In this document: one piece after another, positions 1,049 to 11,384 of the stretch
How the letters are laid out: each line of letters begins with the position of its first letter
How positions within the stretch are numbered: the first letter of the stretch is position 1
DNA from: Halonotius aquaticus
GTDB lineage: Archaea; Halobacteriota; Halobacteria; Halobacteriales; Haloferacaceae
DNA length: 64,000 bases
NCBI RefSeq assembly: GCF_003605575.1
Contig: NZ_QKNY01000009.1
Coordinates: 1 to 64,000 of the forward strand
Direction of reading: 5' to 3'
The notes under the pieces: generated by a model
Told to the model about the DNA's origin: nothing
The model's database searches: none
Seen by the model: only the letters and a program-made list of their open reading frames with translations
Made by a program: the position numbers and the translations under genes

Positions 1049-3379
1049 TCATCGATTGTCTGCAACAGAGATGTTTCTGGCAGTCGCGACGATGGCTTGT
1101 CCGTATGCGATCCCCCCGTCTCCTGGTGGTACCGCAGCTGGTTGGAGATAGCGACAGTCGCTCGGCTCGACGTGAGTTCGGAGCTGCCGCGAGATGGCAC
1201 CGTTGTAGGCTACCCCGCCGGTAAAGCCGACAGCTCCGACATTCCGCTCGGCAGCCGTGTCGAGCGCGATCGTCGCTAAGCCGCTCGCTAACGCATGTTG
1301 TGCTGTTGCAGCGACATCGGCTGCCGACGCGTCGGCTGTGAGGGCAGCCAGCGATCGGACGAGCGTCTGCACATCGAGGACACGATCGCCAGAGCGTGTC
1401 TTATAGGGGATATCGATCGGCTGCGGGGTTCCGTCGCGTGCGAGCCCTTCCAGCCGCTGGGCGGGTTCACCCTCGTAGGTGCGGCGGTCACAGGCACCGA
1501 CCAACGCGCTCACCGCATCGAGATACCGACCCGCGCTGGTCGTTGTCGGGGCGTTCACCCCGCGTTCAGCCTGCTGGCGGACGACAGCGGCATCATCGCG
1601 GCTTTCGACGGCACCGGTTTCCAGCAACCGGTCGTCGATCCGATCGGTATCCGCAAGCAGCGTCGCTAAGATGCGTGCTGGATATTCGATGGCAACCTCA
1701 CCACCGGGCAGCCCAAACGACGAGAGGCCCCCAACACGTTCGAACCCCTCGTAGGTCACGTCCAACACTTCACCGCCCCAGATAGTGCCGTCCGGGCCGT
1801 AACCGGTGCCATCGGCCACGACCACAATCGCTCGGTTGACGTCGTGTTCGGCACACAGCGCAGCTGCGTGGGCATGATGGTGTTGGACAGCAACTGGGCC
1901 GGCCATCCCATCTGCCGCATACTGTTCGGCCTCCGTCGTCGTCAAGAAGTCGGGATGGCGGTCACAGGCGACGACATCGGGAGAGAGGTTCGTAAGCTCC
2001 TGAAGATGGGTAACCGCGTCACGGTGAAACGCCAGCGTGTTCGGGGAGTCGACAGCACCGATGTGTTGTGAGCTAACGACGCCGTCACTGCCGGCGACTG
2101 CGACCGTCGCATCCCGTTCGGGGCCAACGGCCAGCACGACCGGTGACTCGCCGTCGACACCGGTCGGATTCGGCAGCGTCGTCGGCGTCCAGCCACGTGA
2201 TCGGCGGACGAACCGCGGGGTGTCGTCGACAACGCGTACCACGCTGTCATCACAGCGGGCGACGATCTCACGGTCGTGTCCGACCACGCCATCGACGACA
2301 TCGCCGAGTCGATCCCAGACGCTCTCCGTCGTCGTACACATCGGCTGCCCGGGGCGGTTCGCACTGGTCATCACCACGGGGTCGTCCACGTGGTCGAACA
2401 GCAGGTGGTGCAGGCCAGCGTATGGGGTCATGACCCCAACCGTCGATAGCCCCGGGGCGACGACATCGAGCCACGACGCCGCTGTCGTCGTCTCAAGCAG
2501 CACAATCGGACTGCGGACGTCGGTCAGCAACTCTCGGGCCGTGTTGTCGACCTCGGCGAAGGCTTCGATAGCGTCGACCGACCGAGCCATACACGCGAAG
2601 GGTTTCGCCGGTCGTCCGGTTCGGGCTCGGAGCCGGCCGACTGTCTCGGGGTCAGTCGCGTCACAGACCAGGTGGATGCCGCCGGTGCCTTTGATCGCAA
2701 GGATCGAGCCGTCGGTCAACGCGTCGCCGGCCCGAGCGATGGCGTCGGTGCCTGTCGCCACACACTCAGCACCTGTCGCCACGCACTCGGCGTCGATCTC
2801 GTAGCGAAGCGTCGGCCCACAGTCCGGACACCCGATGGTCTGGGCATGACAGCGACGGCTTGTCGGCGTTTCGTATCGCTCGCGGCAGTCCTCACACAGT
2901 GGGAAGGCGGCCATCGAGGTACGGGCGCGGTCGTACGGCACGTCCTCGACGACAGCAAAGCGCGGGCCGCAGTCGACGCAAGCGGTCGCCCAGTACTCGT
3001 GGTAGCGTGAGTCAGGATCACGGAGGTCGTCGAGACACGCCTCACAGATACCCGTATCCGGCGGTACCGGCGCATCAACGCCCCCGGCGTGCTTGCCGGT
3101 CGAGTCACAGATCTCGAAGCCTTCGACGCCGGTTGGATCGCGCCACTCGACATCGACCGCCTCAACGGTCGAAAGCGGTGGCGGGTCGGTACGAACCGTC
3201 TGGAGTACCTGTTCGATAGCCGCTTGCGGCCCCTCGAAGGCGGCCTCGACAGCACCCCCTGTATTGCGGACGTAGCCAGCGATACCGGCGTCAACGGCCG
3301 TTCGGTAGACAAACGGGCGGAAGCCGACGCCCTGGACTGTCCCTGAAATCTGCACGGCGGCACGACAGCGCTCATCCAT
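1049..3379 (-). CDS. hypF: Carbamoyltransferase HypF, [NiFe]-hydrogenase maturation
   Basis: HypF (776 aa) uses carbamoyl phosphate and ATP to make the thiocarboxamide on HypE that becomes the cyanide ligands of the [NiFe] active site. All family domains appear in order: an N-terminal acylphosphatase domain with GTVQGVGFRPFVYR (residues 13-26); paired zinc fingers with four CxxC motifs (about 105-185); a YrdC-like ATP/carbamoyl domain (about 200-385); and a Kae1-like C-terminal domain with the metal-binding HHHAHAA motif. The length is normal for the family. It is the last gene of the hydrogenase operon. Its ATG lies two bases after the hypB stop, so translation is probably coupled. Confidence 0.97.
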   Translation of the reverse strand: MDERCRAAVQISGTVQGVGFRPFVYRTAVDAGIAGYVRNTGGAVEAAFEGPQAAIEQVLQTVRTDPPPLSTVEAVDVEWRDPTGVEGFEICDSTGKHAGGVDAPVPPDTGICEACLDDLRDPDSRYHEYWATACVDCGPRFAVVEDVPYDRARTSMAAFPLCEDCRERYETPTSRRCHAQTIGCPDCGPTLRYEIDAECVATGAECVATGTDAIARAGDALTDGSILAIKGTGGIHLVCDATDPETVGRLRARTGRPAKPFACMARSVDAIEAFAEVDNTARELLTDVRSPIVLLETTTAASWLDVVAPGLSTVGVMTPYAGLHHLLFDHVDDPVVMTSANRPGQPMCTTTESVWDRLGDVVDGVVGHDREIVARCDDSVVRVVDDTPRFVRRSRGWTPTTLPNPTGVDGESPVVLAVGPERDATVAVAGSDGVVSSQHIGAVDSPNTLAFHRDAVTHLQELTNLSPDVVACDRHPDFLTTTEAEQYAADGMAGPVAVQHHHAHAAALCAEHDVNRAIVVVADGTGYGPDGTIWGGEVLDVTYEGFERVGGLSSFGLPGGEVAIEYPARILATLLADTDRIDDRLLETGAVESRDDAAVVRQQAERGVNAPTTTSAGRYLDAVSALVGACDRRTYEGEPAQRLEGLARDGTPQPIDIPYKTRSGDRVLDVQTLVRSLAALTADASAADVAATAQHALASGLATIALDTAAERNVGAVGFTGGVAYNGAISRQLRTHVEPSDCRYLQPAAVPPGDGGIAYGQAIVATARNISVADNR

Positions 3380-3381
3380 CG

Positions 3382-4179
3382 TCAGTGGTGGGCGTGGTCG
3401 TGTCCGGCGGCGCGCACGTCGGTGAGAAACGACGCCACCGCGTCGAGTCCGTCGCCGTCGCGGCCGTTCGTTCGGAACACGTCCATCTCGGGGGCAACAT
3501 CGGCGATGTCCGACGCCATCCGGTCGATATCAGCACCCACGGCATCGGCAATGTCGATCTTGTTGATCACGGCGGCATCACAGGCCTCGAACAACAGCGG
3601 GTGTTTGCGAACCACGTCGTCGCCCTCGGTCGTACTCACGACGAGTACCCGGGCCTGTGCACCGAGTGGGAAGTCAGCCGGACACACCATGTTCCCGACG
3701 TTCTCGACGTACAACCGGTCGAGTGCGTTGAGGTCGAGATCGGTGAGCGCATCTCCAAGCAGCCCGGGATCGAGATGGCACTCCTTGCCTGTCGTGACGT
3801 TGGCAACGTCGACGTCGTGCGTGCGGAATCGACGTGCATCGTCGTCGCCGGCCACGTCGCCGACGACGACGCCGATGGCTTCGTCCGACGGCGCGCGCTC
3901 GATCAGGTGTTCGATCAGGGTCGTCTTGCCGCTCCCGGTGGCACCGAGAAACTCGACGACTGACACGTCGTGGTCGTGAACCAGCCGCTCGTGGAGGGCA
4001 CGCGCCTGCTCGCGGTATTGGGCGAGCACGTCGTCGCTCATGTCGGTTCCATCGGCGTCGTCACCGTGACCGAACCGATGGGCGCGGGCGACCGGGAGCG
4101 GATTCTTGCGGCGCAGGACGCGGCGGAGTCGATGGATCGGGAATCGATGCGACCGTCGTGGGTGGGTGAACAGTGTCAT
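3382..4179 (-). CDS. hypB: Hydrogenase nickel incorporation GTPase HypB
   Basis: HypB is a SIMIBI-class GTPase that, with HypA, delivers nickel to the immature large subunit. The P-loop GATGSGKTT, the metal/G2 region with TGKECHLD, the VENVGN segment, STTEGDD and the guanine-specificity motif NKID are all present. The C-terminus ends in a short His tail (HDHAHH). Two starts compete. The ATG at 4179 overlaps the hypA stop (ATGA) and has a GGGAG ribosome-binding-like sequence seven bases upstream, but it adds 46 very basic residues unlike this acidic proteome. The ATG at 4041 gives a 219-aa protein beginning MSDDVLAQYREQ, which matches the usual archaeal HypB N-terminus. I give the longer form. 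The function is certain, the start is not. Confidence 0.93.
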   Translation of the reverse strand: MTLFTHPRRSHRFPIHRLRRVLRRKNPLPVARAHRFGHGDDADGTDMSDDVLAQYREQARALHERLVHDHDVSVVEFLGATGSGKTTLIEHLIERAPSDEAIGVVVGDVAGDDDARRFRTHDVDVANVTTGKECHLDPGLLGDALTDLDLNALDRLYVENVGNMVCPADFPLGAQARVLVVSTTEGDDVVRKHPLLFEACDAAVINKIDIADAVGADIDRMASDIADVAPEMDVFRTNGRDGDGLDAVASFLTDVRAAGHDHAHH

Positions 4180-4568
4180 GTGTGAACTCCCTCGTTGCAT
4201 TCTGGGGCATCCGGAACGGTGATCGACGCCAGCCGACACTCCTTGCCGCTGGTGAACTCGACGCTCGACCCGCAGTCGGGACAGCGCGCCGTCGGCACCC
4301 GGCCGGCCGTCGCCCCGAACGACGGCGGCTCACCGGCCCAGCCACAGTCACAGGCCGCCTGTGGGTCGACCGACTCGATCTCGACTGTCAGGTCGGAATC
4401 CCCCCGGGTTTCGGCGACAGTTTCGAGACAAAACCGTAACTGGGTGGGATTGACGTGTGTTGCCACCCCGAGCTCGACGGTCAGCGTCTCGACGGTGTCG
4501 GCCCCGTGGTCGGCTGCGGCCTCGCTGGCGCGGGCGAGCAGTTCCTCGGCGACACTGAGTTCATGCAT
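4176..4568 (-). CDS. hypA: Hydrogenase nickel metallochaperone HypA
   Basis: HypA (130 aa) binds nickel through its N-terminal MHE motif, which is present here as MHELSVAEEL, and hands it to the large subunit together with HypB. The structural zinc site is visible as CDC around residue 73 and CPDC about 20 residues later. Length is slightly above the usual 110-120 aa because of a short acidic tail. The stop overlaps the possible hypB ATG, and the start lies two bases after the hypE stop. Both fit tight co-translation in the hyp operon. Confidence 0.96.
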   Translation of the reverse strand: MHELSVAEELLARASEAAADHGADTVETLTVELGVATHVNPTQLRFCLETVAETRGDSDLTVEIESVDPQAACDCGWAGEPPSFGATAGRVPTARCPDCGSSVEFTSGKECRLASITVPDAPECNEGVHT

Positions 4569-4570
4569 TA

Positions 4571-5605
4571 TCAGCAGATTCGTGGGAGCTGTTCGCCCTC
4601 CGGTTCGCTCAGATAGCGACGCCCGAAGCCGGTATCGAGGACGACCCGCCCGGTGTGTTCGTCGGTCACCTCGCCGATCACCGCGGCATCGGCCCCGACG
4701 GACGTGGCCTGCAGGGCATCGACGACGGCGTCGGCGTCAGCCGCGTCCACGCCGAAGACGACTTCTCCCTCGTTGGCCACGTCGAAGGGATCGATCCCGA
4801 GGAGTTCGCCCGCCGCCGACACCGCGTCGTGCACCGGCACGGCTGGTTCGTCGACAACGATTCCAGCGGCGCCCTTCGTCGCCATCTCGTTGAGTGCGGT
4901 CGCAAGCCCGCCGCGCGTCGGATCCTTCATGGCCGTGATCGTGCCCGCATCGAGTGCCGCAGCAACAGCGTCGTTGACCGGGGCGACATCGCTGCGAAGC
5001 TCGCCATCGATATCGAACCCCTCGCGTTCGGCCAGCAGCGTGATGCCGTGATCACCGACGGCCCCTGAGAGGACGAGCTTGTCGCCCGGTGAGAGACCAG
5101 CATCCGGCACATGCGCACCCTGTGGGATGACGCCGACGCCCGTCGTGTTGATGACGACGCCGTCGACCTCGCCGCTGCCCATGACTTTCGTATCGCCGGT
5201 CGTGATCGCACAGCCGGCGGCCTCGCAGGTCGCCTCCATCGAATCAAGGATGTCCTCAAGCAACTCGACGGATGTGCCTGCCTCAACGATAAGCGAGCAG
5301 GTCAGCGAGAGCGGCTCGGTCGCGCCCATCACCGCCAGATCGTTGACGGTGCCCGCGACGGCCAGGCGGCCGATGTCGCCACCCGGAAACGAAAGCGGCG
5401 ACACGACGTGGCTGTCGGTCGTGACGACCACTGATCGATCATCGATCTCGTGAACCGCACCGTCGTCGAGGGCGTCCAATCCGACCGCAAGATCGTCGCC
5501 CGCGCCGTTTTGGGCAAATCTGGAGACGACGCTGTCTTCCAGAAACGCACGGGTCTTACCGGTGCCCGCGCCGTGGGCAACGGTCACCGTGTCGTCGTCG
5601 CTCAT
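4571..5605 (-). CDS. hypE: Hydrogenase maturation protein HypE (carbamoyl dehydratase)
   Basis: HypE (344 aa) dehydrates the carbamoyl group placed on its C-terminal cysteine by HypF, forming thiocyanate that becomes the CN ligands. The essential C-terminal cysteine is present: the protein ends PRIC. The PurM/AIR-synthase-like ATP-binding fold is recognisable from TTDSHVVSPLSFPGGDIGRL, the GDTKVMGSGEVDGVVINTT segment and MKDPTRGGLATALNEM. The start at 5605 is chosen because its ATG overlaps the hypD stop as ATGA. An upstream in-frame ATG would add 30 basic residues inside hypD and is rejected. Confidence 0.96.
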   Translation of the reverse strand: MSDDDTVTVAHGAGTGKTRAFLEDSVVSRFAQNGAGDDLAVGLDALDDGAVHEIDDRSVVVTTDSHVVSPLSFPGGDIGRLAVAGTVNDLAVMGATEPLSLTCSLIVEAGTSVELLEDILDSMEATCEAAGCAITTGDTKVMGSGEVDGVVINTTGVGVIPQGAHVPDAGLSPGDKLVLSGAVGDHGITLLAEREGFDIDGELRSDVAPVNDAVAAALDAGTITAMKDPTRGGLATALNEMATKGAAGIVVDEPAVPVHDAVSAAGELLGIDPFDVANEGEVVFGVDAADADAVVDALQATSVGADAAVIGEVTDEHTGRVVLDTGFGRRYLSEPEGEQLPRIC

Positions 5606-6744
5606 AGATCGGGCTCGCCCCCGTATTCGTGCCAGATCTTGCAGGTGCCTTCGTCGGAGACCATACACGCACCGACCGGATTCGACGGCGTGCACTCCTC
5701 GCCGAACAGCTCACACCCCTCGGGGGAGGCCGTGCCGGCCATGATATCCCCACAGATGCACTGTTCGGTGAGTGGATCTCCAGCCCCGTCGACAGCGTCG
5801 ATATCGAACTGGGCTCGGGCGCTGTGATCGGCGTAGGCCTCCCGCAACACGAAGTTGGCGTCCGGGATCTCGGCGATCCCGCGCCACTCGCCGGACGTGA
5901 GCGTGAACACGTCGTCGATGGCGGCCATCGCCGCCTCGTTGCCCTCCCGGGAGACACACCGCGGATAGGCGTTGTCGAGACCTCCCTCGCCGGCCTCGAT
6001 GAACTCCAGGATGCGCCGGACGCCGTAGAGTACGTCCAGCGGTTCGAACCCGCCGACGACGACTGGGAGATCGTACTCGTCGACGAACTCCTCAAACAGC
6101 CCGTACCCCGTGATGGTCGCGGCGTGGCCGGCGGCGAGAAACGCATCGACATCCGTCTCGGGCATCTCCGCGACGACTTCCATCGCCGGCGGGACGTACT
6201 TGTGCGCCGAGAGCACGGAGAAGTTCTCGGGTGGATCGGCCTGAAGGACGGCTGCGGTGGGTGCGGCGGTTGTCTCGAATCCCGTGGCGAAAAAGACCAC
6301 GTCCTCATCTGGGTTGGTTTCGGCGAGTTCGACGGCCTCGCTGGCGCTGTAGACGACCTCGACCGACGCCCCCTCGGCTTTGGCATCGGCGAGGCTTTTG
6401 ACGGTGCCTGGCACGCGAAACATGTCGCCGTACGTTGCGACCGTTTTGCCAGCCTCCGCTAGCGCGACCGCCTCGTCGACCTCGGGCATGTTCGTCACAC
6501 AGACCGGACACCCCGGCCCCATCGTCACTGAAAGGGCGTCGGGAAGCATGCTTCGCAGGCCGAACTTCGCGATGACCTGCTCGTGGCTCCCACAGACGTG
6601 CATGATCTCGACGGGCTCGTCGATGCGCTCCATCTGAGCCGCGATGTCGTCGGCGAGTTCGTCGGCAACCTCCGGGTCTCGAAACTGGAGGTCGGCAGCC
6701 CCGCCGTCGCCCGCATCGCTGGCGACCGGCTCGCTAGTCGTCAT
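5602..6744 (-). CDS. hypD: Hydrogenase maturation protein HypD
   Basis: HypD (380 aa) is the iron-sulfur scaffold on which the Fe(CN)2CO unit is assembled with HypC and HypE. Diagnostic motifs are visible: HVCGSHE near residue 49, GPGCPVCVT, ATGFETTAAPTA, and the C-terminal cysteine cluster with CICGDIMAG, GCELFGEEC and GACMVSDEGTC that holds the [4Fe-4S] cluster and redox thiols. The start at 6744 begins MTTSEPVAS. The same frame stays open another 100 codons upstream, but that stretch is Ser/Arg-rich shadow of hypC. The coding region overlaps the end of hypC by 11 bases. Confidence 0.96.
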   Translation of the reverse strand: MTTSEPVASDAGDGGAADLQFRDPEVADELADDIAAQMERIDEPVEIMHVCGSHEQVIAKFGLRSMLPDALSVTMGPGCPVCVTNMPEVDEAVALAEAGKTVATYGDMFRVPGTVKSLADAKAEGASVEVVYSASEAVELAETNPDEDVVFFATGFETTAAPTAAVLQADPPENFSVLSAHKYVPPAMEVVAEMPETDVDAFLAAGHAATITGYGLFEEFVDEYDLPVVVGGFEPLDVLYGVRRILEFIEAGEGGLDNAYPRCVSREGNEAAMAAIDDVFTLTSGEWRGIAEIPDANFVLREAYADHSARAQFDIDAVDGAGDPLTEQCICGDIMAGTASPEGCELFGEECTPSNPVGACMVSDEGTCKIWHEYGGEPDL

Positions 6745-7054
6745 CGCCGCCCTCCGGTTCGACAGCCGCTTGCTCGCCGCCGAGGTCGATGTCGGCACCG
6801 CGGGGCGCGCCGATCTCGTCGAGGGCCTCCTCGGCGTCATCGCCGAACAGCGATTCGTAGATGGCGATGGTTTCCTCGACCTCCTGTTCGGGGATCTTCC
6901 GGATGGCGAACCCTGCGTGGTTGAGGATATAATCGCCGACATCGACGGCGTCACCGACCACATCGAGCCGGACGCGCCGTTCGACACCCCAGAAATCGGC
7001 GACTGCCTCGTGGTCGTCGATCTCGACGATCTCGCCGGGGACACCGAGACACAT
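6734..7054 (-). CDS. hypC: Hydrogenase assembly chaperone HypC
   Basis: HypC (106 aa) is the small chaperone that carries the Fe(CN)2CO unit from HypD to the large subunit through its cysteine at position 2. The invariant MCLGVPG N-terminus is present, followed by the OB-fold-like body with VGDYILNHAGFAIRKI. An acidic tail of about 30 residues extends beyond the usual 75-90 aa. Its ATG overlaps the stop codon of the upstream 59-aa zinc-finger gene (TGATG). Confidence 0.96.
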   Translation of the reverse strand: MCLGVPGEIVEIDDHEAVADFWGVERRVRLDVVGDAVDVGDYILNHAGFAIRKIPEQEVEETIAIYESLFGDDAEEALDEIGAPRGADIDLGGEQAAVEPEGGDDD

Positions 7055-7233
7055 CAGCGCTCACCTCCAGGGCCCTCGCTGCCGGCCTGCGCACCGATGA
7101 GCTCCGGATCGCCCGGCAACAGGCGGTCTGGCCGGAAGAACCCCTTGACATGGTGGTCGTCGGCCTCATGGGCGTCGATTGCTCCTTTCTCGATCTCTTC
7201 CTCACAGTCCGTGCAGTACCAGGTTCCGTTCAT
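7054..7233 (-). CDS. 59-aa zinc-finger-like protein in hydrogenase operon
   Basis: This small frame starts MNGTWYCTDCEEEIEK and ends GPGGER. It has one CxxC pair (residues 7 and 10) and, about 15 residues later, H22 and an HH pair (27-28), which together could make a Cys2His2 zinc site. I do not recognise a named family. Its position argues strongly that it is translated. The ATG overlaps the stop of the upstream protease gene (ATGA), and its own stop overlaps the hypC ATG (TGATG). The codon usage is GC-rich like its neighbours. In some bacterial hydrogenase operons small rubredoxin-like or HupH/HypX-type accessory proteins occupy this position, but homology to them is not visible. Confidence 0.75.
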   Translation of the reverse strand: MNGTWYCTDCEEEIEKGAIDAHEADDHHVKGFFRPDRLLPGDPELIGAQAGSEGPGGER

Positions 7234-7727
7234 AGTGGTGTGTTGAGTCGTGTGGTAATGTGTGAGACAAGCTCGGGGAGTGCGTCCGAAACGGGGTCGG
7301 ACAGCTCTAACCCCGGCTCAAGGACGGCCGGCACCACGCCGACGAGTTCAACCGTCTCAGGGAGGTCGTAGGCGGCGTCGCCGACCGCGAGCGCGTCGCT
7401 AAAGCTAAAATCGTGCATGGTCACCTCCGGCGGGGTCTCGCCGGGGTCGTCGTAGCGAAACGTCCGGACACACCCCGGTTCGTCGTCAACCGCGAGTGCG
7501 TCGACGACGATCGCTCGGTCGCTTCCGCTCATCGCTTCGAGGGCCAGAAACGCGGTCGTGCCGGCGTGGCTCACCGTCGTCCCTGGTGGCAGCGATCGCT
7601 CCCGTAAGGCCTCGATAGCGTGGAAGCCGACGCCGTCGTCGCGCATGACGCGGCTTCCGACGCCGACGACGGCCTGGCTGGTCGGCAGCTCGGCCGTTCC
7701 GACCTCACCCGTCGTCGTCATCGTCAC
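7230..7727 (-). CDS. hyaD: Hydrogenase maturation endopeptidase (peptidase M52, HyaD/HycI family)
   Basis: This 165-aa protein belongs to the nickel-dependent proteases that remove the C-terminal extension of the large subunit after metal insertion. The N-terminal signature is present as GVGSRVMRDDGVGFHAIEAL, where most homologues have G-[IV]-G-N; the Asn is Ser here. The second metal-site acid lies in VVDALAVDD and the third ligand region in MHDFSFSDAL. The frame overlaps the end of the cytochrome b gene by 23 bases, and its stop overlaps the ATG of the small zinc-finger gene. With a single large subunit in the operon, its substrate is presumably the adjacent HyaB-like protein. Confidence 0.92.
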   Translation of the reverse strand: MTMTTTGEVGTAELPTSQAVVGVGSRVMRDDGVGFHAIEALRERSLPPGTTVSHAGTTAFLALEAMSGSDRAIVVDALAVDDEPGCVRTFRYDDPGETPPEVTMHDFSFSDALAVGDAAYDLPETVELVGVVPAVLEPGLELSDPVSDALPELVSHITTRLNTPL

Positions 7728-8556
7728 CTCCGAGCACGTAGGCGTCTATGTCGCCGAACAACATCGATCTGAGCGTCTCCCGGTTGCTGGGCAGCAGCGC
7801 GAAATACACGTGGCCCAGCACCATCGACACGACGATGAAAAACACGAACAGGTGGATCTGCTTGAGCAGGACGATGTTCAGCCAGCCATCCAGAAAGCCG
7901 AGCAGTTCGATCCACCAGGCCGGATCCGACCGCATCTCGGCGTACATTCCGAACCCGGTCACCACGAGGACGGCAAATAGGATGTTGATCCACCAGAAGA
8001 AGGTTTTCTGCATCGGGTGGTAGGCGACCCAATCACCCTCCGCCTCGTCGTACGTCTGGCGGGCGTCGTGATACCCCGGGATGTAGGATTTCAGCCCGAC
8101 AAACGCCTGGGCAACACGAATCGAGACGCGGATATCGGCGAGTTCGGCCAGTTGCCGGTGGCCATCGACATAGACGTGATACAGCGGGAAGAGAACGAAC
8201 AGGACGGCCATCAACAGGATGCCAGCCCAGAGATGCAGACCGAAAGCGATGTAGTAGCCGTCCCACGGCACGATGTTCAGTGGGCCATACGTGCCCGTCC
8301 AGATGGCGTACCCCGTTCCCATGAGGATGAACATCAACAGTGCCTGCGTCCAGTGGGAGAGGCGTGCGCCCAGCCCGTGACGCTCGACTGAGACCCGCCC
8401 TTTCATCGCCTGAATCCGGCTGTACCGGTCGTCGGCCGCCTCAGGCGACCGTAATACCGACCGTAGGAGCCCGAGCAGCTGGGCACTGATCCTGGATTCG
8501 GCCGCCGTCTCGCCGGGCGGGTTGCTGTCGGCGGCCTCCGGGTCGGAGGTCGTCAT
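7705..8556 (-). CDS. hyaC: Cytochrome b subunit of [NiFe]-hydrogenase
   Basis: This 283-aa membrane protein belongs to the cytochrome b561/Ni-hydrogenase b-type family. It takes electrons from the hydrogenase small subunit and reduces quinone, probably menaquinone in haloarchaea. Four hydrophobic segments are visible (about residues 68-86, 102-128, 184-204 and 228-256). Histidines suited to bind two b hemes lie at H68 (LSHW), H108 (GLHLW), H235 (KQIHLF) and H249 (LGHVYF). A soluble N-terminal extension of about 55 residues precedes the first helix. The C-terminus is a run of Asp/Gly. The stop overlaps the protease gene, and the start overlaps the large-subunit stop by four bases. Confidence 0.93.
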   Translation of the reverse strand: MTTSDPEAADSNPPGETAAESRISAQLLGLLRSVLRSPEAADDRYSRIQAMKGRVSVERHGLGARLSHWTQALLMFILMGTGYAIWTGTYGPLNIVPWDGYYIAFGLHLWAGILLMAVLFVLFPLYHVYVDGHRQLAELADIRVSIRVAQAFVGLKSYIPGYHDARQTYDEAEGDWVAYHPMQKTFFWWINILFAVLVVTGFGMYAEMRSDPAWWIELLGFLDGWLNIVLLKQIHLFVFFIVVSMVLGHVYFALLPSNRETLRSMLFGDIDAYVLGGDDDDDG

Positions 8557-10118
8557 GTGTCGTCGGCCTCCTCACCGGCGATCGGCGCGTCACAGGCCGC
8601 CGTGAGCGCGCTGCCCGGCGATGCCGGCGTGATCTCCTCGGTATAGCTTGCCTCCGGGCTTTCGACGTGAACTGAACAGGCCAAACAGGGGTCGAACGAC
8701 CGCACCGTTCGCATCACGTTGAGCGGGTTCTCGACATCGGCGACGGTCATCCCCTCGACGGCTGTCTCGAAGATGCTGGGCGTCCCCGAATCGTCGCGTG
8801 GGCCAAGGTTCCACAGCGTCGGAGTGATGATCTGATAGTTGGTGATGGTGCCGTCTTCAATCTTCACCCAGTGAGAGAGAGCGCCGCGGGAGGCCTCCCA
8901 GAGCCCGACGCCTTCGCCGCTGAAATCGTCGCTCCAGCCGGTGTTGACCGTCCCGTTCGGGTCGATATCGTCGAGTAGCTCGACGATCTGATCGCGGAGT
9001 AGCAACGCCTCCTGTGCGCGGGCGATGAGGCGGTTGAGCGTGCTGCTTTTGGTGGGATCGCCGCCGAGTGTCGCCCGGAGGTCGAAGGGATCCCTGTCGG
9101 TGACGATCAGGCGGGCGAGCGAACCGGTCTCCATGTTCATCCCGTTGTACCGCGGGGCTTTCCCCCACGAGTAGGCCCCCTCTTTGTCCGGTGCTGGCTT
9201 CGGTGGCGACTCCTCCATCGGCGACCCGCCGGAGTCGTCGGTGTACCACGAGTGGGCCGTGCTCTCGGTGATCGCGTTTTTGATCTCCTCGTCGCTGGGA
9301 TGAGAGAGTTCGCCGTCAACGTAGATTCCGGAGGGGATCTGATCCTCGCCGTTCTCGTCGGGGTAGATGCCGTTGCAGTAGTATCGCCCCGGGCCAACGC
9401 CGAAGTCGTCGGCACCGGCCTCCTTCGCGGCGAACAGCAGCGAAACGATGTCGTGGAGCCCCTCGCCAAGCGTCGGATCAAACCGGTCGTTGCGGACGTT
9501 CTCGATCACCTCGGGAACGGCGTCAGTCGGCCCGAGCCAGTCGCTGACGAACTCGACCTGGTCGCTGATCTGCTGGAGTTTCTCGATGGTTGGATTGGCC
9601 GACATCCCACCGGGCGCGTAGGTGAGTGGATGGGGGGCCTTCCCGCCGAACTCGGCGAACCCCTGCAGCAGTTTGCGCTGGGCCTCCAAGGCGGCGGTGT
9701 ACCCCGCTCCGTCCATGGGGTCGAGCCGTGTCAACCCTGTATCGGCGACGGCGTCGCTGTAGTCGGGGGCGACGAGCGCAAACATGTGAACCGCGTGGTT
9801 CCACAGCGTCGCCATCCGTTCCAGCAGGTTGCGCATCTTGCGGGCGGTGTCGGGGATCCCGTCGAAGACCCCCGCGTTCTTGGCGGCGTTCTCGATGGCC
9901 AACAGCGCGGTCTGTCGATGGACGGTGAAACAGACGCCACAGACCCGTTGGGTGAACACCGGCGCGTCCGACGGCGGGCGGTTCAACACGACCAGCTCCA
10001 TGCCGCGGAACATGTCCATGTGGCTCTTCGCCTCAGTAACCACGCCGCCCTCGACATTCAGCGTGGTACTGTGATGACCTTCGATTCGTGTTGTCGGGTC
10101 GATTTCGATCTCTGGCAT
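8553..10118 (-). CDS. hyaB: [NiFe]-hydrogenase large (catalytic) subunit
   Basis: This 521-aa subunit holds the Ni-Fe centre that splits H2. Both ligand motifs are intact: the N-terminal RVCGVCFTVH (Cys60, Cys63, His67) and the C-terminal DPCLACSVH (Cys478, Cys481, His484). The N-terminus DPTTRIEGHHS is typical of membrane-bound uptake (group 1-like) enzymes. By family rule the maturation protease cuts after His484, removing a propeptide of 37 residues, longer than the usual 15 or so. The protein lies one codon after the small subunit gene and directly upstream of the cytochrome b. It would be co-exported with the Tat-signal-bearing small subunit. Confidence 0.96.
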   Translation of the reverse strand: MPEIEIDPTTRIEGHHSTTLNVEGGVVTEAKSHMDMFRGMELVVLNRPPSDAPVFTQRVCGVCFTVHRQTALLAIENAAKNAGVFDGIPDTARKMRNLLERMATLWNHAVHMFALVAPDYSDAVADTGLTRLDPMDGAGYTAALEAQRKLLQGFAEFGGKAPHPLTYAPGGMSANPTIEKLQQISDQVEFVSDWLGPTDAVPEVIENVRNDRFDPTLGEGLHDIVSLLFAAKEAGADDFGVGPGRYYCNGIYPDENGEDQIPSGIYVDGELSHPSDEEIKNAITESTAHSWYTDDSGGSPMEESPPKPAPDKEGAYSWGKAPRYNGMNMETGSLARLIVTDRDPFDLRATLGGDPTKSSTLNRLIARAQEALLLRDQIVELLDDIDPNGTVNTGWSDDFSGEGVGLWEASRGALSHWVKIEDGTITNYQIITPTLWNLGPRDDSGTPSIFETAVEGMTVADVENPLNVMRTVRSFDPCLACSVHVESPEASYTEEITPASPGSALTAACDAPIAGEEADDT

Positions 10119-10120
10119 GC

Positions 10121-11353
10121 TCAGTCCTCCGTGCTGGTGGCCTCACTTGCACATTCACACTCGCTTCCGCAGGCACAGCCACCGTCGGGTCTGGGTGGCT
10201 CTTCCGTCGCGCTGTCGGCGTCGTCGCCGTCACCGTACCCCATCGCCTTCCGTCCAGCGTGGGCCCCAAGGCCGGCTGCGGTCGCGCCGACGGCGGCAAC
10301 GCCGGCTGTCTCGATATCGCCGAGCGGGAGCCCCTGCTCCTCGATCGGCTGATAAAACGGCGTCATGTTGTCCCAGAAGGCGGGTTCCATACAGCCGATA
10401 CACGGAGCCCCGACATTCCGGCAGACGCTCGTGCCGTCGTTCCAGAGCCGTACCGAGTCGTCGCAATGGCAGTACGGCCCTTTGCAGCCGACCGTGTAGA
10501 GACATTTTTCGGAATCTTCGCCGACGTGGTCGACGAACTCACCGCGGTCGAAGTAGCCACGGCGAGAACACTGATCGTGAACGAGCGGCCCGTAGAACGC
10601 TTCGGGGCGGTTGAACTCGTCGAGCTCCGGTGTGTGGCCGTTCAACAGCGTTGCTACAGTAAGCAACACGTAGTCGGGGTGAGTCATACAGCCGGGGACA
10701 TTGATAACCGGGAGGCCGGCATTCGACCGAAAGTCGGGGCCAAGAACGCCCTCGTCGCCCTGCTGGTGGGTGAACTGGACGCCTTTCGCGCCGGTGACGT
10801 TGTCGTCCAGCCACGGCCCCTCCTCGGTGTCGTCGGTGACCGCCGGCGCGCCGTTTTGCGCCGACTGCCACCCGCCATAGCAGGCACACGTCCCGATCCC
10901 CATGACGAACTCCGAGCGTGGGGCCAGTTCCTTCACCCAATCAACGATCGGTTTTCGCCGTCCCTTCTCGTCGCGGCCGAAGGTCGCTGCCGACGGGATC
11001 TTCGTCGGGATCGCCCCCTCGATCATCAGGATGTCGGGGTCGTCGCTCATCGCGTCGATGGCGTCTTGGCCTGTCTCGGCCATGATCTCTGGATGGTAGG
11101 TGACGTTGAGTTTGAACTCGGAGATCGCCTCCTCAAGACTTGGCGACGTTCCCTGCAGCGTCGACATCGTACACGCCGAACAGGTCTGGCCTTGGAGCCA
11201 GACGACATCCTTCGTGCCGTCGGTCGCTTTGGTGAGTGCGGCTGCGACGTCTGTGCTGTACTCTGTCATGACGGTTCCGGCTGCTGAGGAGCCAACAAGG
11301 CGGAGGAAATTTCGTCTGGTCGTATCGGCGGTCGATAGCCCCAGATTGGCCAT
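10121..11353 (-). CDS. hyaA: [NiFe]-hydrogenase small subunit, Tat-exported
   Basis: This 410-aa iron-sulfur subunit relays electrons from the Ni-Fe site to the cytochrome b. A twin-arginine signal is visible (TTRRNFLRLVG, residues 11-21). Proximal-cluster ligands are Cys58, Cys61, Cys156 and Cys222. Distal-cluster ligands are His259, Cys262, Cys284 and Cys290. The medial motif has Cys311, Cys318 and Cys321 (CIGC), plus Cys295 or Cys297. At residue 311 most group 1 enzymes have proline, so the medial cluster here may be [4Fe-4S]. An extra Cys158 lies next to the proximal ligand. A weakly hydrophobic C-terminal helix (about 349-366) could anchor it, followed by a Cys-rich tail (CAC, CEC). The start at 11353 is chosen from the Tat motif and the TATA box at 11377-11384. 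Confidence 0.95.
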   Translation of the reverse strand: MANLGLSTADTTRRNFLRLVGSSAAGTVMTEYSTDVAAALTKATDGTKDVVWLQGQTCSACTMSTLQGTSPSLEEAISEFKLNVTYHPEIMAETGQDAIDAMSDDPDILMIEGAIPTKIPSAATFGRDEKGRRKPIVDWVKELAPRSEFVMGIGTCACYGGWQSAQNGAPAVTDDTEEGPWLDDNVTGAKGVQFTHQQGDEGVLGPDFRSNAGLPVINVPGCMTHPDYVLLTVATLLNGHTPELDEFNRPEAFYGPLVHDQCSRRGYFDRGEFVDHVGEDSEKCLYTVGCKGPYCHCDDSVRLWNDGTSVCRNVGAPCIGCMEPAFWDNMTPFYQPIEEQGLPLGDIETAGVAAVGATAAGLGAHAGRKAMGYGDGDDADSATEEPPRPDGGCACGSECECASEATSTED

Positions 11354-11376: not shown

Positions 11377-11384
11377 TTAATAAA
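11377..11384 (-). promoter_or_regulatory. TATA-like box of the hydrogenase operon
   Basis: Read on the minus strand this is TTTATTAA, 24-31 bases upstream of the small-subunit ATG at 11353. That spacing predicts a leaderless or nearly leaderless transcript starting the whole structural-plus-hyp operon. No other convincing promoter is visible inside the cluster, where the genes overlap. Confidence 0.55.

Follow-up and report, generated by a model that had tools for sequence, protein, structure and literature searches.

Gene content and predicted enzyme

The window analysed here, a stretch of 64,000 nucleotides from Halonotius aquaticus that starts at base 1 of a 188-kb contig (G000:C18) in a draft genome of 2.47 Mb (18 contigs, 98% estimated completeness), carries a [NiFe]-hydrogenase operon of 11 genes on the minus strand, running from 11353 down to 1049. 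The ten genes that can be named are all intact, and each is recognised by Pfam or NCBIfam models. The operon opens with the small subunit HydA (410 aa, 10121–11353; TIGR00391, PF14720/PF01058 and alignment), the large subunit HydB (521 aa, 8553–10118; PF00374, nickel-site motifs and tree position), a b-type cytochrome HydC (283 aa, 7705–8556; a cytochrome b561 match to PF01292, supported by homologues, with TIGR02125 below cut-off) and the maturation protease HydD/HycI (7230–7721; TIGR00072, PF01750). These are followed by a 59-aa ORF of C2H2-type zinc-finger-like character (7054–7233), assigned from homologue conservation and predicted structure, and then by hypC (6734–7054; TIGR00074, PF01455), hypD (5602–6744; TIGR00075, PF01924), hypE (4571–5605; TIGR02124), hypA (4176–4568; PF01155 over cut-off, TIGR00100 below), hypB (3382–4179; TIGR00073, with a conserved HRFGH motif seen when N-termini were compared) and a full-length hypF (1049–3379; TIGR00143, E 8e-225, and five Pfam domains over cut-off), whose domains are of the acylphosphatase, zinc-finger, YrdC and Kae1-like types. 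Because related haloarchaeal loci show this gene order as well, a chance arrangement is excluded.

The first-pass annotation had described ten genes packed in one direction with most junctions overlapping by a few bases, and in this it was right: seven of the ten junctions overlap and the remaining three are 2-bp gaps (range, 17-bp overlap to 2-bp gap), within the boundaries it gave. It had also called the locus complete, which holds for the ten named genes; it had, however, overlooked the eleventh, the 59-aa ORF, and left the strand unstated. Its further claim of self-sufficiency in hydrogenase biogenesis is sound for the maturation genes and overstated beyond these, as a nickel-import search limited to the CbiM type found no such importer. 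A TATA-like box, TTTATTAA (11377–11384, minus strand), matches the consensus and lies 31 nt upstream of the small-subunit ATG at 11353, which supports that start; an equivalent box is present in Halohasta salina, and we regard it as the putative operon promoter. A tRNA-Pro called by ARAGORN inside hypA (4263–4352, minus strand) has no Rfam support and is probably an artefact. We do not favour a plasmid location for this operon, given that the same contig carries apparent core genes (ileS, nad genes and a proteasome subunit, judged by how the predicted proteins begin, and also uvrA).

Both nickel-site motifs are present in HydB (L1, RVCGVCFTVH; L2, DPCLACSVH), and the 37-aa tail after the second is presumably cleaved, as expected for processing by the protease. 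Visual inspection of the alignment shows that HydA has a Tat motif (TTRRNFLRLVG) followed by hydrophobic residues; it also has a hydrophobic helix at its C-terminus, and the four His of HydC (in SHW, LHLW, QIH and GHVYFA) match those of Escherichia coli HyaC. Taken with the Pfam matches, these motifs support the earlier proposal of a Tat-type, membrane-anchored uptake enzyme with a b-type cytochrome. Alignment places ligands for three FeS clusters in HydA, with Cys at the medial-cluster site where bacterial [3Fe-4S] enzymes have Pro, so that the medial cluster is probably [4Fe-4S]. The proximal site is of the ordinary 4-Cys, standard O2-sensitive type: the CSAC and GTCACYGG segments are without the two extra Cys of HyaA, and hence without the six Cys that define group 1d. 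Past the C-terminal helix, HydA carries a Cys-rich tail, GGCACGSECECASE (10121–10200, minus strand), which is found in most of the window's subclade and is missing in both Halovenus and in the AArc1 subclade.

Considering these features together, we suggest that HypA–F would assemble the NiFe(CN)2CO site, that the protease would remove the large-subunit tail, and that the folded HydAB dimer may then be exported by way of the Tat signal and anchored through the HydA C-terminal helix and the HydC cytochrome b. Electrons from H2 would pass along the three FeS clusters and two b haems to menaquinone. Group 1 [NiFe]-hydrogenases are chemically reversible, and in principle the operon could run backwards, or act as a redox valve that vents H2 from an over-reduced quinone pool; but enzymes of group 1 that are linked to quinone work in uptake, the nearest relatives to have been studied grow on H2, and menaquinone is so oxidising that it does not readily drive H2 release, which makes this use very unlikely. 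That the locus encodes a haloarchaeal group 1 uptake hydrogenase, as a self-contained cassette, we hold with high confidence.

Phylogeny, distribution and probable transfer of the cassette

The large-subunit phylogeny proposed as a check by the first-pass annotation bears out a haloarchaeal group 1 enzyme. In a quick tree of 61 large subunits, with SH-aLRT support and no bootstrap, the window's protein falls within an all-haloarchaeal clade (30 rows, SH-aLRT 100) and there within a subclade of 10 rows (SH-aLRT 100), apart from the group 1d, 1h, 2b and 3d references. The haloarchaeal clade forms a joint clade (SH-aLRT 99) with a cluster of archaeal sequences, probably from Archaeoglobi. HydDB places Archaeoglobi enzymes in group 1j (PMC5037454), and the haloarchaeal enzymes are group 1a by the HydDB classifier according to Sorokin et al. 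2018 (PMC6176080).

Other hydrogenase forms occur among the haloarchaea. The group 1h enzyme of Cupriavidus necator (AH) groups not with the window's protein but with other haloarchaeal large subunits (L024, L023 and L058, from G070, G074 and G369; SH-aLRT 100), to which there are further matches in G075, G281, G334, G412 and G430; judged from sequence, these 1h-like proteins suggest high-affinity H2 oxidation in some haloarchaea. A second haloarchaeal form (L084, L091, L094 and L087), which has no adjacent cytochrome b homologue and a degraded Tat motif, is perhaps cytoplasmic. Separately, the haloarchaeal relatives L083, L085, L086, L088, L089 and L092 (~60% identity) have Met, Lys or Thr where the L1 motif (RxCGxC) usually has Arg; the window's protein keeps the Arg.

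Hydrogenases are indeed uncommon in haloarchaea, as had been stated: with a threshold above 640 bits, the large subunit of this gene class was found in 27 of 392 sampled Halobacteriales genomes (~7%). Members of the window's subclade (72–93% large-subunit identity) also occur in Halohasta, Haloplanus, Halorussus, Halovenus, Halobiforma, Natronomonas and Salinibaculum, so that the whole cassette is present in eight genera of five named families. Conservation extends through the whole operon, from the small subunit as far as hypF; in the flanks, any given gene family is shared by a few loci at most. Four genus mates all lack the cassette, though the completeness of one of these genomes is just 73%. 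Genus mate G058 is colinear with the genes upstream of the window operon as far as a YdjM-like gene, after which unrelated genes follow. Given the five-family spread, the differing flanks and the absence from genus mates, it is likely that the cassette moved horizontally as one block, which suggests that a hydrogen pathway can pass between families in this way. The locus also adds to the haloarchaea that could live partly on H2. The patchy distribution and the differing flanks would also suit a recently transferred, silent passenger; yet here and across the subclade the reading frames and catalytic motifs are undamaged and the gene order is unbroken, and we consider a silent cassette improbable.

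A small zinc-finger-like ORF linked to the operon

The 59-aa ORF shows a close association with this class of hydrogenase. Its pattern is WYCTDC...HE...H...PDRLL..DP, and across 16 homologues W5, C7, C10, H22 and H27, among others, are invariant. Neither Pfam nor NCBIfam gives a match for it, and the homologue on pAArc1-02 is annotated 'hypothetical protein'. Strong matches (E below 1e-19) were found in 25 of the 392 Halobacteriales genomes, and comparison of coordinates shows a hydrogenase large-subunit gene no more than ~2 kb away in all 25; not one of the 392 genomes has a strong match without having this hydrogenase. Conversely, 25 of the 27 genomes with the large subunit have the ORF, the two others being G419, where no hyp genes adjoin the hydrogenase subunits in the region examined, and G295. 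Eleven further matches, at E 1e-4 to 1e-9, are weaker; they fall at other places and resemble small zinc fingers of other kinds. The idea that the ORF is restricted to cytochrome b loci was rejected, since it is also present in loci with no adjacent cytochrome b.

The predicted structure has a beta-beta-alpha, zinc-finger-like core (residues 1–30, pLDDT 81–90; overall mean pLDDT 70.9), and a Foldseek search with the protein gave solely weak, non-significant B-box/ZZ-like matches. From its linkage to the operon, we suggest that the protein is probably a dedicated assembly or accessory factor, or a regulator. The ORF seems to be undescribed, and its linkage to the operon lies beyond the literature that could be searched; as a possible new accessory factor for hydrogenases, the gene is open to direct test.

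Electron acceptor and relation to known systems

The earlier suggestion that H2 serves as an electron source for respiration is largely right, and the uptake reading is well supported, but neither is new: H2 oxidation coupled to respiration has been shown for relatives (PMC6176080), in work published in 2017–2018 (PMC5437934, PMC6176080). With regard to the acceptor, we searched for molybdenum reductases by way of PF00384, the molybdopterin oxidoreductase family of the nitrate, DMSO, polysulfide, thiosulfate and formate molybdoenzymes. In the window's genome the family has no match, whereas 348 of the 392 Halobacteriales have one; this genome does have two COX1 (haem-copper oxidase) genes, one with an adjacent COX2. 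The family is likewise missing from Halorussus halobius, Halovenus aranensis, Halovenus salina and two Salinibaculum, that is, in all from six of the 10 genomes with the window's hydrogenase subclade as opposed to none of the 12 with the AArc1 subclade (Fisher, p 0.003; p 0.0004 against the whole order), in a post hoc comparison of related genomes in which four genera make up the six. An association of the subclade with genomes lacking molybdenum reductases, which is also beyond the searchable literature, is suggestive only.

Since there is no molybdopterin reductase and there are two O2 reductases, O2 appears the likeliest electron acceptor in this organism, a proposal that we make with moderate confidence; electrons would then most likely end on O2 via one or other haem-copper oxidase, perhaps where oxygen is scarce. 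Against this stand the ordinary proximal cluster, without the extra Cys of the O2-tolerant type, and the physiology of the AArc strains, which grow anaerobically on H2 with sulfur (S0) or DMSO and show no aerobic H2 use (PMC6176080). Natrarchaeobaculum and Halodesulfurarchaeum use H2 only in the absence of O2 (PMC6176080, PMC5437934), and the window enzyme may, like theirs, be anaerobic only, its acceptor being a non-molybdenum one or a reductase encoded on a replicon missing from the assembly. The draft state of the genome means that a plasmid with such a reductase could be missing from it; the same lack in five other members of the subclade, in an order where the family is common, tells against this explanation, and we judge it a real but lesser possibility. 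Low-oxygen use would reconcile O2 as acceptor with both the proximal cluster and the AArc physiology.

If O2 is the acceptor, this would contradict the anaerobic-only pattern reported for haloarchaeal H2 use, and the ability of a standard proximal cluster to withstand oxygen would call for an explanation; a literature search, mostly outside subscription papers, found nothing on aerobic H2 use in haloarchaea. The fuller proposal, that the subclade represents an O2-linked hydrogenase with an ordinary proximal cluster, in cells without a molybdenum reductase and with a dedicated new 59-aa assembly protein exclusive to these operons, is put forward tentatively and may well prove wrong in one part or another. 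A broad 2024 survey of archaeal hydrogenases ('minimal and hybrid hydrogenases') may already cover the window's clade.

Among known systems, HydABC of Halodesulfurarchaeum was described in 2017 (PMC5437934), and Sorokin et al. 2018, from the same group, described a compact module of hydABC, hydD and hypA–F in several haloarchaea, plasmid-borne in two and called suitable for lateral transfer (PMC6176080). The window locus belongs to this module, having hydABC, adjacent hydD and hypA–F, and a place in the haloarchaeal clade. Natrarchaeobaculum sulfurireducens AArc1 (pAArc1-02) shares the gene order including the small ORF, the Tat signal and the cytochrome b, and its large subunit is 59% identical to the window's; in AArc1, however, the locus is plasmid-borne, several molybdenum reductases are present and the L1 motif has Met, whereas the window's locus lies on a contig with what look like core chromosomal genes, its genome has no such reductase and its L1 motif has the usual Arg. 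Halodesulfurarchaeum formicicum, likened here by description and not by sequence, likewise has a haloarchaeal group 1 membrane-bound uptake enzyme (PMC5437934), in a sulfur/thiosulfate-respiring anaerobe. The Archaeoglobi-type group 1 enzymes (1j), a name that we infer from PMC6176080, share the joint clade at 39–43% identity, and in both loci inspected (L095 and L096) hyp genes are absent from their neighbourhood. Finally, the group 1d membrane-bound hydrogenases (E. coli Hyd-1 and C. necator HoxKG) share the order small subunit–large subunit–cytochrome b and Tat export, but possess the extra proximal-cluster Cys that the window enzyme lacks, and the latter lies on a separate branch.
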